Part shown: positions 17,605 to 28,436 of the stretch, one piece after another
Layout: each line of letters starts with the position of its first letter
Numbering within the stretch: position 1 is the first letter of the stretch
Assembly: GCA_025359165.1 (NCBI GenBank)
Contig: JANYHG010000175.1
Location: 1-40,868 of the forward strand
DNA from: Hyphomicrobiaceae bacterium
GTDB taxonomy: Bacteria; Pseudomonadota; Alphaproteobacteria; Rhizobiales; Hyphomicrobiaceae
Length of the DNA: 40,868 bases
Reading direction: 5' to 3'
Translations under genes and position numbers: made by a program
Notes under the pieces: generated by a model
The model's database searches: none
What the model saw: the letters and a program-made list of their open reading frames with translations, nothing else
What the model was told of the DNA's origin: nothing

Positions 17605-18105
17605 CTTGCGGATGAAATTAGCCATTTCAGCAGCTTGCGCGTGCAGGTTGTGACGTGGTGTGATATCGCTTTTGCATCCAAATCGTCTGGGGGGTGGACC
17701 GTGCGCGTACTCGGACCCCGATCTGGGAGCTGGTCAGACGGAGCTGAGGTGAAGTCGCCGAGGCAGGCAGCGTATAACGGCTATTGCGGCAAAGCGCTGT
17801 GTCGATGGTTCGAAGTGCGACCGGAAAACCTGAAGCAACCGTCTGAATAAAATGCCGGACAGGATGGTGCTGGTCACGCTTCGCACCACGCTCGAACGAG
17901 GACACATGGCCTCGAACCCCTGATGCGTTTGATCAACGCGGACGGCTTTTTTCGAGCTGCTCCCCGGCGGCAAAGCGGGACGTGATGCCACGCATCACAC
18001 CCCGATCCCCGGCATCACGTCCCGCCCCTGTTATGGGGGCATAAAGTGAGCTGGAACTGGTTAAAACCACACGGCTGAAGCCGGTGTGGACAAAGGTGTT
18101 TTGCG
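17605..18105 (+). repeat. Intergenic repeat element, copy A
   Basis: About 500 bases after the PsiE-like gene align with 26830-27335 (copy B) in the same orientation. The similarity begins near the ATTA.CCAT segment (17618 here), passes through a 49-codon frame opened by GTG 17701 and closed by TAA 17848-17850 behind a G-rich ribosome-site-like run, and ends past the third hairpin. A 32-base block (18043-18074) is identical in both copies. There are no terminal inverted repeats or transposase. Ends are approximate because they were judged by eye. Confidence 0.85.
17976..18089 (+). ncRNA. Candidate structured RNA with alternative hairpins (copy A)
   Basis: CGGGACGTGATGCC (17976-17989) pairs perfectly with GGCATCACGTCCCG (18011-18024). 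The inner part GTGATGC (17982-17988) can instead pair with GCATCAC at 17992-17998 across a 3-base loop, so the two stems exclude each other. CCCC/GGGG (18025-18028 with 18035-18038) and a third hairpin (18067-18089, CCACAC/GTGTGG) follow, and TTTT comes 11 bases later. The pairing is seen in sequence; that it is an RNA, and a switch, is inference. Confidence 0.4.
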
Positions 18106-18159
18106 ACGAAGCCGTGGGGTGCCATAGCGGAGCGTATTGCACCGCTGCAGGGTGACGTC

Positions 18160-18187
18160 GGTGTAATACGGCTGCGCCTATTACACC
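18160..18187. repeat. Palindromic intergenic hairpin
   Basis: GGTGTAATA (18160-18168) pairs with TATTACACC (18179-18187), and GGC/GCC extends the stem past one bulged base. Similar GGTGTAATA...TATTACACC hairpins are common between genes in alphaproteobacteria. From here to 18384 I see no clear gene: a minus-strand frame is open from 18400 to a stop at 18188 but has no usable start. Confidence 0.6.
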
Positions 18188-18384
18188 CTACACGACGTGG
18201 CCGGGGTCGGGTGGGGCGTCGTCACTCAATTTCAGCGTATTGGTGACCGCGCCAATCTGGACCTTGTCGTGGGTGCCGTCCACACATGACGAAAAATTAT
18301 GACCGTGGAGGGGTTGTAAACCGCGGCGAAGCTTGCCGTTTGGCGGCTTGTCGTGGGTGATCTGCGCAGCGTTCGGCGCGATGC

Positions 18385-24273: not shown

Positions 24274-26295
24274 ATGACAAACTCGTTCACATTGCCGTCT
24301 TTTGTCCACAGCGCCGCCGCAGACGGATCGGGTGGCGGCGGTGGTGCGGGATCTGACAGCGGGGCCCGATCGGGCGGCCTGAGCCTGTCGCAGCGCGCCA
24401 TGCAGGGGGCTGCGCCGCCCTACCTCGCCGGGCTCAATCCCGAACAGCGGCAGGCGGTCGAGACGCTGGATGGGCCAGTGCTCGTGCTGGCCGGCGCCGG
24501 CACCGGCAAGACCAAGGTGCTGACAACCCGCATCGGTCACATCCTCGCGACCGGCCGCGCGTTCCCCAGTCAAGTGCTGGCCGTCACCTTTACCAACAAG
24601 GCCGCGCGAGAGATGCGCGAACGGATCGGCAGCCTGATCGGCGGTGCCGTCGAGGGCATGACGTGGCTGGGCACGTTCCACTCCATCGGCGTCAAGATCC
24701 TGCGCCGGCATGCCGAACTGGTCGGGCTCAAGTCGGGCTTCACGATCATCGACATGGACGACAGCCTGCGCCTGATGAAACAAGTGATCGAAGCCGAGGG
24801 GCTGGACAAGGAGCGCTGGCCGGCGCGGCAGCTGGCCAACCTGATCGACAGCTGGAAAAATCGCGGCATGACGCCGGACAAGGTCCCGGCAGGCGAAGGC
24901 CAGAACTTCGGCAACGGCACCGGGCTCAAGTTGTATACGGCCTATCAGCAGCGGCTGAAGGATCTCAACGCCTGCGACTTCGGCGATTTGCTGCTGGAGT
25001 GCATCCGCCTGTTCCAAACGCACCCGGACGTGCTGGCCGATTACCATCGCCGCTTCAAGTTCATGCTGGTCGACGAGTATCAGGACACCAACGTCGCGCA
25101 ATATATGTGGTTGCGGTTGCTGGCGCAGGGCTGCCCGAACCTCTGCTGCGTCGGCGACGACGACCAGTCGATCTACGGCTGGCGCGGCGCGGAAGTCGAC
25201 AACATCCTGCGCTTCGACAAGGATTTCCCCGGCGCGACCGTCATTCGCCTTGAACGCAACTATCGCTCCGACGGCCACATCCTCGGAGCCGCCGCTGCCT
25301 TGATCGGCCAGAACAAGGGCCGCCTCGGCAAGACGCTGTTCACCGATGGCGACCTCGGCGCGAAGGTGACCGTGACGGGCGTGTGGGACGACGAGGAAGA
25401 AGCCCGCACGGTCGGCGAAGAAATCGAGCGGCTGCAGAAGTCGCATCATCCGCTGAACGAGGTGGCCATCCTGGTGCGCGCTTCGGCGCAGATGCGCGCC
25501 ATCGAAGATCGCTTCATCACGCTGGGATTGCCGTATCGCGTCATCGGCGGCCCGCGCTTCTACGAGCGGCAGGAAATCAAGGACGCCATCGCCTATCTCG
25601 AAGTGGTCGCCAATCCGCTCAACGATCTCAAGTTCGAGCGCATCGTCAATGTTCCGAAACGCGGGCTCGGCGAGACCTCGGTCAAACGGATCATGGAATA
25701 TGCCCGTGCGCGGTCGATCCCGATGACGGTCGCGACGCGCGAAATCATCGAGACGGAGGAACTCGGCGGCAAGGCGCGGCGGGGCTTCCGCGATCTGCTC
25801 AATCAGTTCGAGCATTGGCGCAGCCAGGTCGACCGCATCAGGCACACGGAACTTGCCGAACTGATCCTGGACGAGAGCGGCTATACCGCCATGTGGCAGG
25901 CCGACAAAGGCCCGCAGTCGCAGGCGCGGCTGGAAAACCTGAAGGAACTCGTGCGCTTCATGGAGCAATTCGAGACGCTCGCGGGGTTCCTCGAACATGT
26001 GTCGCTGGTGATGGATACGGCCAGCGGCGACGACGGCGACCGCGTGTCGCTGATGACGCTGCACGCGGCTAAGGGCCTCGAATTTGGCACGGTGTTTCTG
26101 ACCGGCTGGGAGGAGGGGCTGTTCCCGCACCAGCGCTCGCTCGACGAAAGCGGACTGCAGGGCCTGGAGGAAGAGCGGCGACTGGCCTACGTCGGCCTGA
26201 CACGCGGCAAGCACAATGTGCGCGTTTCATTCGCACAGAATCGCCGTCTGCGCGGCCTCTATCAAAGCGCGGTGCCATCGCGCTTCGTCTACTAG
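24274..26295 (+). CDS. uvrD: UvrD/PcrA-type DNA helicase, ended early by a TAG stop
   Basis: A 673-residue superfamily 1 helicase. Walker A is AGAGTGKT (73-80), motif Ia is VTFTNKAAREM, Walker B is DEYQD (267-271), motif III is GDDDQSIYGWRGA and motif V/VI lie in TLHAAKGLEF and EERRLAYVGLTR. All motor parts are present, so the protein should unwind DNA. A Gly/Ser-rich N-terminal extension (about 1-50) precedes them. The frame ends at TAG 26293-26295, in the place where relatives continue with ELPE...HVEVTE, a linker and a C-terminal Tudor-like domain. That remainder is still readable downstream in the same frame. UvrD acts in nucleotide excision and mismatch repair. Confidence 0.92.
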   Translation: MTNSFTLPSFVHSAAADGSGGGGGAGSDSGARSGGLSLSQRAMQGAAPPYLAGLNPEQRQAVETLDGPVLVLAGAGTGKTKVLTTRIGHILATGRAFPSQVLAVTFTNKAAREMRERIGSLIGGAVEGMTWLGTFHSIGVKILRRHAELVGLKSGFTIIDMDDSLRLMKQVIEAEGLDKERWPARQLANLIDSWKNRGMTPDKVPAGEGQNFGNGTGLKLYTAYQQRLKDLNACDFGDLLLECIRLFQTHPDVLADYHRRFKFMLVDEYQDTNVAQYMWLRLLAQGCPNLCCVGDDDQSIYGWRGAEVDNILRFDKDFPGATVIRLERNYRSDGHILGAAAALIGQNKGRLGKTLFTDGDLGAKVTVTGVWDDEEEARTVGEEIERLQKSHHPLNEVAILVRASAQMRAIEDRFITLGLPYRVIGGPRFYERQEIKDAIAYLEVVANPLNDLKFERIVNVPKRGLGETSVKRIMEYARARSIPMTVATREIIETEELGGKARRGFRDLLNQFEHWRSQVDRIRHTELAELILDESGYTAMWQADKGPQSQARLENLKELVRFMEQFETLAGFLEHVSLVMDTASGDDGDRVSLMTLHAAKGLEFGTVFLTGWEEGLFPHQRSLDESGLQGLEEERRLAYVGLTRGKHNVRVSFAQNRRLRGLYQSAVPSRFVY

Positions 26296-26826
26296 CTGCC
26301 CGAGTCGCACGTGGAAGTGACCTAAGCCAAAAGTCCGTTCGGCGGTGCCTATCAGAATTTTGCGGGACCGGGATCGTTCGGGCGGCAGAACCCTTATGGC
26401 AAAAGCCGCTTCGACGACAACGTGCCGTCGCCATATGAAAGCACGTACAATACGCCGGGATGGCAGCGGGCACAGCAGCACTGGAAGGGCGGCGGCGGTA
26501 ACGCGTCGTCGGGTGGCGGCAATTTCGGGGGCAACAGCGCCTCCGGTTCGGGCAACTTCTCGACGGGTGCGGCCAAGCCAAAATTCCAGACGGCCAACAA
26601 GTTCCAGACCGCGAAAGCAGTGCCGAAACGTGGCCCCCAAACCATCGAGGGGGAACTCGTCGCGGCTTCGAGCGCGCCGGGGCTCGGCTTCCTCAAGGGC
26701 GAACGCGTCACGCACCAGAAGCTCGGCGCGGGCACAGTCGTCGAAGTCGATGGCAACAAGCTGACGATCGAATTCGATGAAGCCGGACGCAAGCGCGTGG
26801 TGGATGCGTTCGTGGATCGAGCGTGA
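26296..26826 (+). pseudogene. In-frame C-terminal remainder of uvrD behind two stop codons
   Basis: The uvrD frame continues after TAG (26293-26295) as LPESHVEVT, meets TAA at 26323-26325, then runs 166 codons to TGA at 26824-26826. It encodes a Gly/Ser/Asn-rich linker with NTPGWQRAQ, then the conserved end GERVTHQKLGAGTVVEVDG...FDEAGRK, which is the PcrA/UvrD C-terminal domain known to contact RNA polymerase. There is no frameshift and no other stop. Both stops are one G-to-T change away from glutamate codons expected in relatives. A downstream restart is possible (GTG 26422), but no good ribosome site is seen. Confidence 0.8.
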
Positions 26827-26829
26827 GGA

Positions 26830-27335
26830 CGGCTTAGTGGGTATTATCCATACCTGCAACTTACGCGCGCAGATTGCGCCGCGTTGTGCTATACGTTTCT
26901 GCATCCCATGGTCATCAGGGGGCGGCTTGTGAGCGTTCACGACCCCCGACCGGGAGCCGTGTCGGAGCGGCGCTTGGATCGCAAGATTCGGGCAGCGGCG
27001 TACAAGGAAGAGAATTCCGAAGGTGCCGTGCGAAGCGGAAGGCGCAAGCCGACCACGACGCAACCGTTCCGAATATAAAACCGGTCCGATGGTGCGAGGT
27101 CACGCACGGCACCTGGCTCGAACTGGCGGACACTCGTGCCCCCAACAACGCTTCGCTTGATCAGCGAGCGGTTCGAGCGATCCCCCGGCGGCAAATTGGG
27201 ACGTGATGCTCAGGCATCATTTTCCGATCACGCGAGCATCACGTCCCGCCCCTGGTTTGGGGCCAGAAAGTGAGCTGGAACTGGTTAAAACCACACGGTG
27301 AGAGCCGGTGTGGCTGGAGGTGTTTTTGCATCAGT
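26830..27335 (+). repeat. Intergenic repeat element, copy B
   Basis: The second copy of the element at 17605-18105 lies a few bases after the uvrD tail. It contains a GTG-started frame (26929-27078) of exactly the same length as in copy A (49 codons plus stop), G-rich sequence before it, and the identical 32-base block at 27267-27298. The two 49-residue products share only about 12 aligned residues, so the DNA is better conserved at the 3' half than in the frame. This element fills most of the 587-base gap before the FkbM gene. Confidence 0.85.
27198..27313 (+). ncRNA. Candidate structured RNA with alternative hairpins (copy B)
   Basis: GGGACGTGATGCT (27198-27210) pairs perfectly with AGCATCACGTCCC (27235-27247). 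Compared with copy A the last pair changes from C-G to T-A, a compensatory change. GTGATGC (27203-27209) can also pair with GCATCAT (27214-27220). GCCCC/GGGGC (27248-27252 with 27259-27263) and CCACAC/GTGTGG (27291-27313) follow, then TTTTT at 27323-27327. Structure is supported by two copies only. Confidence 0.4.
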
Positions 27336-27413: not shown

Positions 27414-28436
27414 TTATGAAGCTTGCCGATCGCCAAAAAAGCGCTCGCGTTTCTCTAAAAGCTGAATTTCGTCGAATGCAAATGGCCTATTTTTCCAAGA
27501 AAGCGTCCGCATGCCAGCGGTAAAAAAGGTGCCATCGTAGCCTTGAAAGATGAGCGTTTGACTGGGATTAAACATAGAATCGATGCTGTTGTCAGGAATA
27601 TTGAACAAACTATACAACTCATCCAAGACGAAAAACGCATCCATCCCAGCGATGCACACCAACGAATACCCTTTCTCTTTCCCAAGCTTAATCATCGCTG
27701 ACAAAGAGCTACCCTGATTGATAGAGGGGTTGGCGGCTTGGACAAAATAAACGTCGTTCGGCACAGTAGGATTAAACTCGATATTGATCACACGCGGCTT
27801 GTGGCCATGTATACCGTTCCACACGTGCCAATCGTTTCCGTCGATGTCAATGCTCAAAAGATCGATTTCGGCTTTTAGCTTCAATCTATTTATTACATTG
27901 TCGAAACTGTTTTCGCCGTTCCAGGTTATGAAATGATTGAGAGCAGTAACCCGTTCATAGGGATGATTGATCTTAATCTGTTTGCACCGCTCGACGTTGG
28001 CTTCGGCCAGAATTCCCGACCAGCCCTCTTCTGCAATCAAACGCCAAGTGTTACTCATCGTTTTACCATCAAACCCACCGAATTCGACCGCTATCTTCGA
28101 TACTGGCTTGATGACCTCGAATATTTTTTCTAAGACGCCATCCTGTCCGTCTTGCGATGCGACATTCCGGGCATAGCCATTTAACCAATTACAATCGGCA
28201 CGCACGCGCGATTGTTGTTTATATGAAATCGAAGGCATCGCTGCGGCTTCGGTCGGCACATAGGTCGAGACAGATGTAATCGCATCCCGGCCAAGTCGTT
28301 CGACGTCGCGCTTAACCTCGGAGGGGATCGGCCCAAAGCGATTGATTAAGTCGGCATGGTTGAGCCTTTCCAGCACGCCGTCAGTGAACCAGTGCCCGAT
28401 TGATTTGACGCCGCGACGATAATAATCAAGCAACAC
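27414..28436 (-). CDS. FkbM-like SAM-dependent methyltransferase, AT-rich
   Basis: A 340-residue protein. The SAM-binding motif region is AVEFGGFDGKTMSNTW (116-131) followed by GWSGILAEAN, and the second mark is DLLSIDIDGNDWHVW (192-206), then RVINIEFNP. These fit the FkbM-type methyltransferases, which often modify sugars or lipids of the cell surface; the substrate is unknown. The N-terminal 80 residues have no family match that I see. Its base composition is clearly more AT-rich than all neighbours and its codon choice differs, which points to horizontal gain. It stands alone between repeat copy B and ptsH. Confidence 0.75.
   Translation of the reverse strand: MLLDYYRRGVKSIGHWFTDGVLERLNHADLINRFGPIPSEVKRDVERLGRDAITSVSTYVPTEAAAMPSISYKQQSRVRADCNWLNGYARNVASQDGQDGVLEKIFEVIKPVSKIAVEFGGFDGKTMSNTWRLIAEEGWSGILAEANVERCKQIKINHPYERVTALNHFITWNGENSFDNVINRLKLKAEIDLLSIDIDGNDWHVWNGIHGHKPRVINIEFNPTVPNDVYFVQAANPSINQGSSLSAMIKLGKEKGYSLVCIAGMDAFFVLDELYSLFNIPDNSIDSMFNPSQTLIFQGYDGTFFTAGMRTLSWKNRPFAFDEIQLLEKRERFFGDRQAS

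Follow-up and report, generated by a model that had tools for sequence, protein, structure and literature searches.

Two Copies of One Element in the Window

The window, i.e., the whole stretch of 40,868 nucleotides that was analysed, was found to contain two copies of one element on the same strand (+). Copy 1, of subfamily A, extended over 17617..18105, with an exact left end and a fuzzy 3' end (18102 to 18110); copy 2, of subfamily B, extended over 26843..~27327, with its left end exact at 26843. The two copies were alignable end to end, and the local match was 77% identical over 270 nt (E 2.4e-44). A sequence-only reading had described an intergenic element of ~500 bases, present in two copies of the same orientation, and the whole-length alignment confirmed this; the 32-base identical block (18043-18074 and 27267-27298) lay exactly where it had been placed. 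The element is ~480 bases long, non-coding and intergenic. No open frame was common to the copies, and the differences in copy length were often not multiples of three.

The left end of the element was sharp, and the sequence upstream of it was common to no copies except the pair L009/L011. The right ends of both window copies were found 10-20 nt past a terminal hairpin (18067-18089 and 27291-27313, respectively), where a loosely conserved GGTGTTT followed the hairpin CCACACGG..CCGGTGTGG. No long terminal inverted repeat was found in the element, in agreement with the earlier statement that inverted ends are missing, and the complete copies showed no visible target-site duplication. In copy 1, the fold paired TTAGCCATTTCAGC imperfectly with the subterminal GCTGGAACTGGTTAA, a pairing that was not kept in the sister species.

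The 5' domain of copy 2 (26918..26959, +) contained a GGGGG/CCCCC helix (26918-26922 with 26943-26947), a hairpin P3 (26927-26932 with 26937-26942) and a possible pseudoknot CGGC/GCCG (26923-26926 with 26956-26959). It was followed on the same strand by the hairpin H1 (27153..27167, loop UUGAUCA), the conserved core GAGCGATCCCCCGGCGGCAA (27175..27194), the hairpin H2 (27198..27247, arms 27198-27211 and 27234-27247) and the nearly invariant terminal hairpin H4 (27291..27313). Copy 1 contained, on the + strand, H1 at 17925..17939 (GCGU-UUGAUCA-ACGC), the core GAGCTGCTCCCCGGCGGCAA at 17954..17973, H2 at 17975..18025 and H4 at 18067..18089. A GTAG-type palindromic repeat doublet (18114..18192, strand not assigned) stood directly after copy 1 as a neighbouring repeat outside the element proper.

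The gene before copy 2 (24274-26826, +) encodes a pcrA/uvrD-like helicase and contained in-frame stops at 26293-26295 and 26323-26325, before the C-terminal tudor part; it was otherwise open, and the stops may mark a genuinely split gene or an error in the sequence. After copy 2, an open reading frame of 340 aa (27414-28436, -) had no Pfam match and was unmatched in the loci of the sister genomes.

Conserved Fold of the Element

The minimum-energy folds of complete copies were below those of shuffled sequences, with z -2.8 in copy 1, z -4.4 in copy 2 and z -3.3 in L010; the reverse strand of copy 1 folded more weakly (z -1.9). Folding energy alone is weak evidence, because a copy of the G003 genome reached just z -1.3, and covariation is the stronger evidence. 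In the 3' domain (H1, H2 and H4), 93.4% of cells were paired and eight pairs showed two-sided change, in 32 cells; three of the four H1 pairs covaried, with all cells paired. Against shuffles that ignore the relatedness of the copies, the covariation score of the 3' domain was 0.276 (shuffled mean 0.170; 0/500 shuffles as high), and slid controls reached at most 0.103. In the 5' domain, where the GGGGG/CCCCC helix encloses P3, four P3 pairs were changed on both sides, and the score was 0.248 against 0.127 in the same kind of shuffles (0/500 as high), far above every slid control. Measures based on counts of pairs or of types were less decisive (23/500 and 88/500; 117/500 and 469/500). The helices H0 and H3, whose arms were taken by hand, were compensated between species. 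The pseudoknot helix CGGC/GCCG fitted 81% of cells and was broken in subfamily A; it is considered only possible because two-sided changes were absent.

None of the 10 own-genome copies in the alignment A2 broke a pair of H1, H2 or H4. There were more G-U cells (27) than A-C cells (14), and among the own-genome copies of that alignment every non-Watson-Crick cell was G-U (13 G-U, 0 A-C), which favours the + strand as the one that would act as RNA. The H1 loop was UGAUCA or UGAUCG, a palindromic UGAUCR, whereas the H2 loop contained an invariant CGAUC; an invariant GAUC was thus present in both. Because neither loop varies, we only infer a possible kissing interaction of the two loops, either inside one molecule or across two.

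The way the 5' helices are nested had suggested a hammerhead- or HDV-like ribozyme, which was rejected by eye as neither the loop nor the catalytic strand matches. An integron attachment site was likewise rejected by eye, the consensus being absent. One G003 copy contained the hairpin CCCCTCACTTTTGAGGGG three times in tandem inside the element (L058:1838-1925).

Copy Number and Distribution

The own genome (G000) is a draft of 4.16 Mb in 268 contigs, 97% complete. Copy 1 as the query found 24 matching places in it and copy 2 found 23, which together gave 27 distinct places on 26 contigs. This spread excluded local duplication, the alternative that the sequence-only reading had set against further copies. 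Since 16 left ends were counted by pattern along with 15 intact right ends, the genome holds about 16-17 elements, seven of them complete, namely the two in the window and one each on contigs 39, 240, 122, 136 and 77. The incomplete copies were cut by contig ends, as is expected of repeats in a fragmented assembly, except for an internally deleted copy on contig 246. The copies formed two subfamilies, A (with copy 1) and B (with copy 2), about 70-78% alike between and about 83-93% within.

Diverged relatives were found in two of the four other genomes of the genus (Hyphomicrobiaceae MAGs): G003 contained nine matches to the 3' model, and G002 contained three matches, with five right ends recognised by pattern. 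The element was not matched in G001 or G004, although a G004 sequence, CACTAGGTATCTACCTAGTCG (L059:315-340), is similar to the hairpin at the left end of the G003 elements. A search with R1, a covariance model of the 3' part of the element, found no element in the other 98 genomes of the family. Among 397 sampled genomes of the order, it gave a single weak outside match, from a different family, at 24 bits and E 0.005 per genome (397 genomes); this was a plain hairpin without the core and at chance level. The exact 20-base core pattern, searched in one genome each of 84,980 species, was found only in the sister Hyphomicrobiaceae MAGs GL140_1_metabat_314 and GL140_3_metabat_318_sub and at two unrelated sites; the exact matches in Bosea and Phycisphaerales lacked the other parts of the element and were rejected.

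No match came from viral contigs (exact 18-base pattern), phage records or plasmids, and a phage or plasmid origin was rejected within the records searched. Rfam 15 gave no match in the window at its own (gathering) thresholds, and relaxing the search to E 10 in nine loci gave none of note, the HEARO and group II intron models included; a known RNA family was therefore rejected within Rfam 15. The earlier statement that no named family fits thus held within these libraries. The element makes up a family of dispersed structured-RNA repeats that is confined to the genus and unmatched in the libraries searched.

Genomic Context and Neighbouring Repeats

All copies examined were present between called genes. 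Both window copies had been described as lying just after a plus-strand gene, and this is not a rule: with genes called by a simple codon-usage script, the upstream gene had the same orientation in 12 of 19 copies and the downstream gene the opposite one in 14 of 22, a weak tendency. The 51 flanking proteins were of diverse, unrelated families, among them NuoE, aconitase, leucine aminopeptidase, acyl-CoA ligases and ribonuclease J, and one of the proteins was a phage-type integrase. Neither a common transposase nor a member of the IscB/IsrB family was found among the best 25 of 78 and the best 25 of 514 families listed for these proteins.

In subfamily A, the region of the GTAG doublet formed a 3' extension common to five of the six copies. 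L001 and L003 had in common the element and ~200 nt of right extension, including the doublet, whereas their left flanks differed. The cut copies L007, L006 and L008 contained the same extension at differing lengths, and L002 was without it. Such copies, fixed on the left and variably extended on the right, suggest a mechanism that occasionally misses the right end; it is also possible that the repeats were inserted before copying. Directly to the left of both L009 and L011, 65 bp of another palindromic repeat was found, which reflects either a preference for palindromic-repeat sites or a mosaic that moved together.

GTAG-type doublets similar to that at 18114-18192 were also present after element copies in G002 and G003 (L061, L067 and L066). 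The right flank of L003 (2130-2256) contained CGTC-type palindromes (CCCGGCCTGCGCCGGGATGACG); as these stand close to element copies, the intergenic regions that bear the element are mosaics of several repeat families.

Probable Mobility and Alternative Explanations

Both window sites were without the element in the sister genomes where the upstream gene could be found. Gene order differs in these genomes, synteny is broken and no clean empty site was recovered, so we infer the insertion of the element. A tree built from the 3' domain placed all 14 copies of the own genome in a single group (99/100) and the three from G002 in a second (99/95), a pattern that points to separate amplification in each lineage. 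The sites of the element were not common to the species, and the copies clustered by species.

The element is probably a non-autonomous mobile intergenic repeat of ~480 bp that encodes a structured RNA. The mobile part of this reading is supported by the dispersed copies, the non-shared sites, the sharp ends and the species-specific families, and the RNA part by the compensatory base pairs. Against mobility, recombination between repeats might also have spread the copies, the draft genomes yielded neither an enzyme nor a clean empty site, and L009 and L011 share the left flank of 65 bp. The sequence-only reading had proposed either a non-autonomous mobile repeat or a dispersed regulatory RNA gene. 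Both ideas survive, and mobility is the better supported; the compensatory pairs support the RNA of the second proposal, and nothing was found in favour of its regulatory role.

It is unlikely that the host keeps the element as a multicopy gene for a functional non-coding RNA with a dosage-dependent or site-specific job, its spread being incidental. Such a gene would account for the intact helices of all own-genome copies in A2 and for the two-sided compensatory changes, and the palindromic UGAUCA loop with the invariant CGAUC loop suggests an ordered tertiary or dimeric RNA. However, a consensus scan found no promoter-like site, nothing was conserved upstream of the left end, the neighbours were unrelated, the sites differed between the species, and the element was missing from two genomes of the same genus and from the rest of the family.

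We regard it as quite improbable that the element is a mosaic repeat acting in DNA form only, like REP/BIME or ERIC, with a fold that serves as a cruciform or as 3'-UTR hairpins affecting transcription ends, mRNA stability or DNA-protein binding. Several copies do adjoin GTAG palindromes, L009 and L011 adjoin another palindromic repeat, and many copies are located after genes. The complex fold, with its multiple helices and long unpaired motifs that are conserved, and the excess of G-U over A-C cells argue instead for RNA, and the orientation to upstream genes is without clear bias (12/19).

The least probable explanation, which we give very little weight, derives the element by deletion from an RNA-guided or self-splicing one (IscB/IsrB with HEARO RNA, TnpB with guide RNA, a group II intron or a retron). 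A structured RNA does cover a unit that looks mobile and whose 5' end is fixed, and the own genome contains one retron-type reverse transcriptase, but the element is not near that locus, Rfam gave no match even at E 10, the carriers were without a Y1 transposase and no version bearing an open reading frame was seen. A MITE of a DDE transposon was rejected, as the complete copies had neither a terminal inverted repeat nor a visible duplication.

Candidate Enzymes and Proposed Mechanism

Y1, reverse transcriptase (RT), IS91 and IS110 were searched in five members of the genus, of which the own genome, G002 and G003 are the carriers. No match to the Y1 transposase (PF01797) was found in the three carriers, which are drafts 92-97% complete. 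RT was present in the own genome and in G003 and absent from G002, and the same was true of IS110; the IS91-type enzyme was found, among the carriers, in G002 only. An autonomous partner among these four was rejected, none being present in all three carriers, and no enzyme can be named for the element because each is missing from at least one of them. The RT of the own genome (L154:1276-2643, -, contig 179) is a retron-type protein of 455 aa, below the NCBIfam cut-offs for the named retron families.

The copies would spread by transposition in trans, through an outside factor. The + strand would fold, as RNA or as single-stranded DNA, and the 3' hairpin would mark the right end; the internal RNA fold is probably kept since the transcript helps mobilisation or persistence. 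Elements of the IS200/IS605, REP/RAYT and IS91 types are handled as folded single strands. We tentatively suggest, as one possibility, a mechanism that recognises folded single-stranded ends and not a DDE transposase acting on inverted repeats. It fits because inverted ends and target duplications are missing, a hairpin stands 10-12 nt before the right end, and the right end is sometimes extended whereas the left end is fixed. A non-autonomous IS200/IS605 derivative would have hairpins near both ends, a fixed target tetranucleotide on the left and no target duplication; in the element, a terminal hairpin and no duplication were seen, and no fixed target letters preceded the left end. It is rather doubtful that the element represents a new class of bacterial mobile element, in which the large structured RNA is itself the mobile or guiding entity, either as an RNA intermediate or by recruiting an enzyme of the host or an orphan one, and which would have multiplied separately in each species with no coding partner.

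Comparison with Known Repeats and Structured RNAs

Non-autonomous intergenic repeats are already known as a kind, and it is the size, the fold and the missing inverted ends that set the element apart as a variant. Short dispersed repeats in bacteria are mostly palindromic, or else relics that bear inverted ends. A repeat of ~480 nt that keeps an elaborate RNA fold by two-sided changes, while reaching new sites in each species, raises the question of whether the RNA aids its own spread. Our analysis supplies a covariance model and a set of copies for this family, which Rfam lacks.

The ERIC, BOX, RUP and Correia repeats are non-coding and intergenic, occur in tens of copies, fold as RNA and are patchy among relatives, and the element is like them in all these respects. 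They are non-autonomous small mobile repeats of bacteria (PMC2229807, PMC3049150). The element is longer, showed no terminal inverted repeats or target duplication, and was unrelated to them in sequence by the Rfam and collection searches.

The REP/BIME and REPIN palindromic repeats are GTAG- and CGTC-tagged and 20-40 bp long; like the element, they are dispersed, intergenic, hairpin-bearing, present in many copies and presumed to be mobilised in trans (PMC3733652, PMC3116915). REP-like palindromes are neighbours of some element copies here. The element differs from REP in its ~480 nt, its several helices and its conserved core. It is not a palindrome of 20-40 bp with a GTAG or CGTC tag at one end, and in the own genome no such tag with a palindrome was found at its end; the left end of the G003 element begins with CGTC.

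GOLLD, ROOL, OLE and HEARO are large structured (ornate) bacterial RNAs (PMC12286853). The element resembles them as a large structured RNA in which kissing loops are suspected from the sequence; bearing on an RNA-only homo-oligomer of the GOLLD/ROOL type, the sequence offers only the palindromic UGAUCR loop and the invariant CGAUC loop. It differs from them in its copies dispersed through one genome, with no Rfam match (the HEARO model gave none up to E 10 in the nine loci) and no associated protein known. The BRE repeat of Betaproteobacteria, of unknown function, is an intergenic multicopy repeat with mobile-element features, as is the element, whereas it is ~90 bp long; it occurs in up to 29 copies, which are mostly intergenic (PMC3110155).
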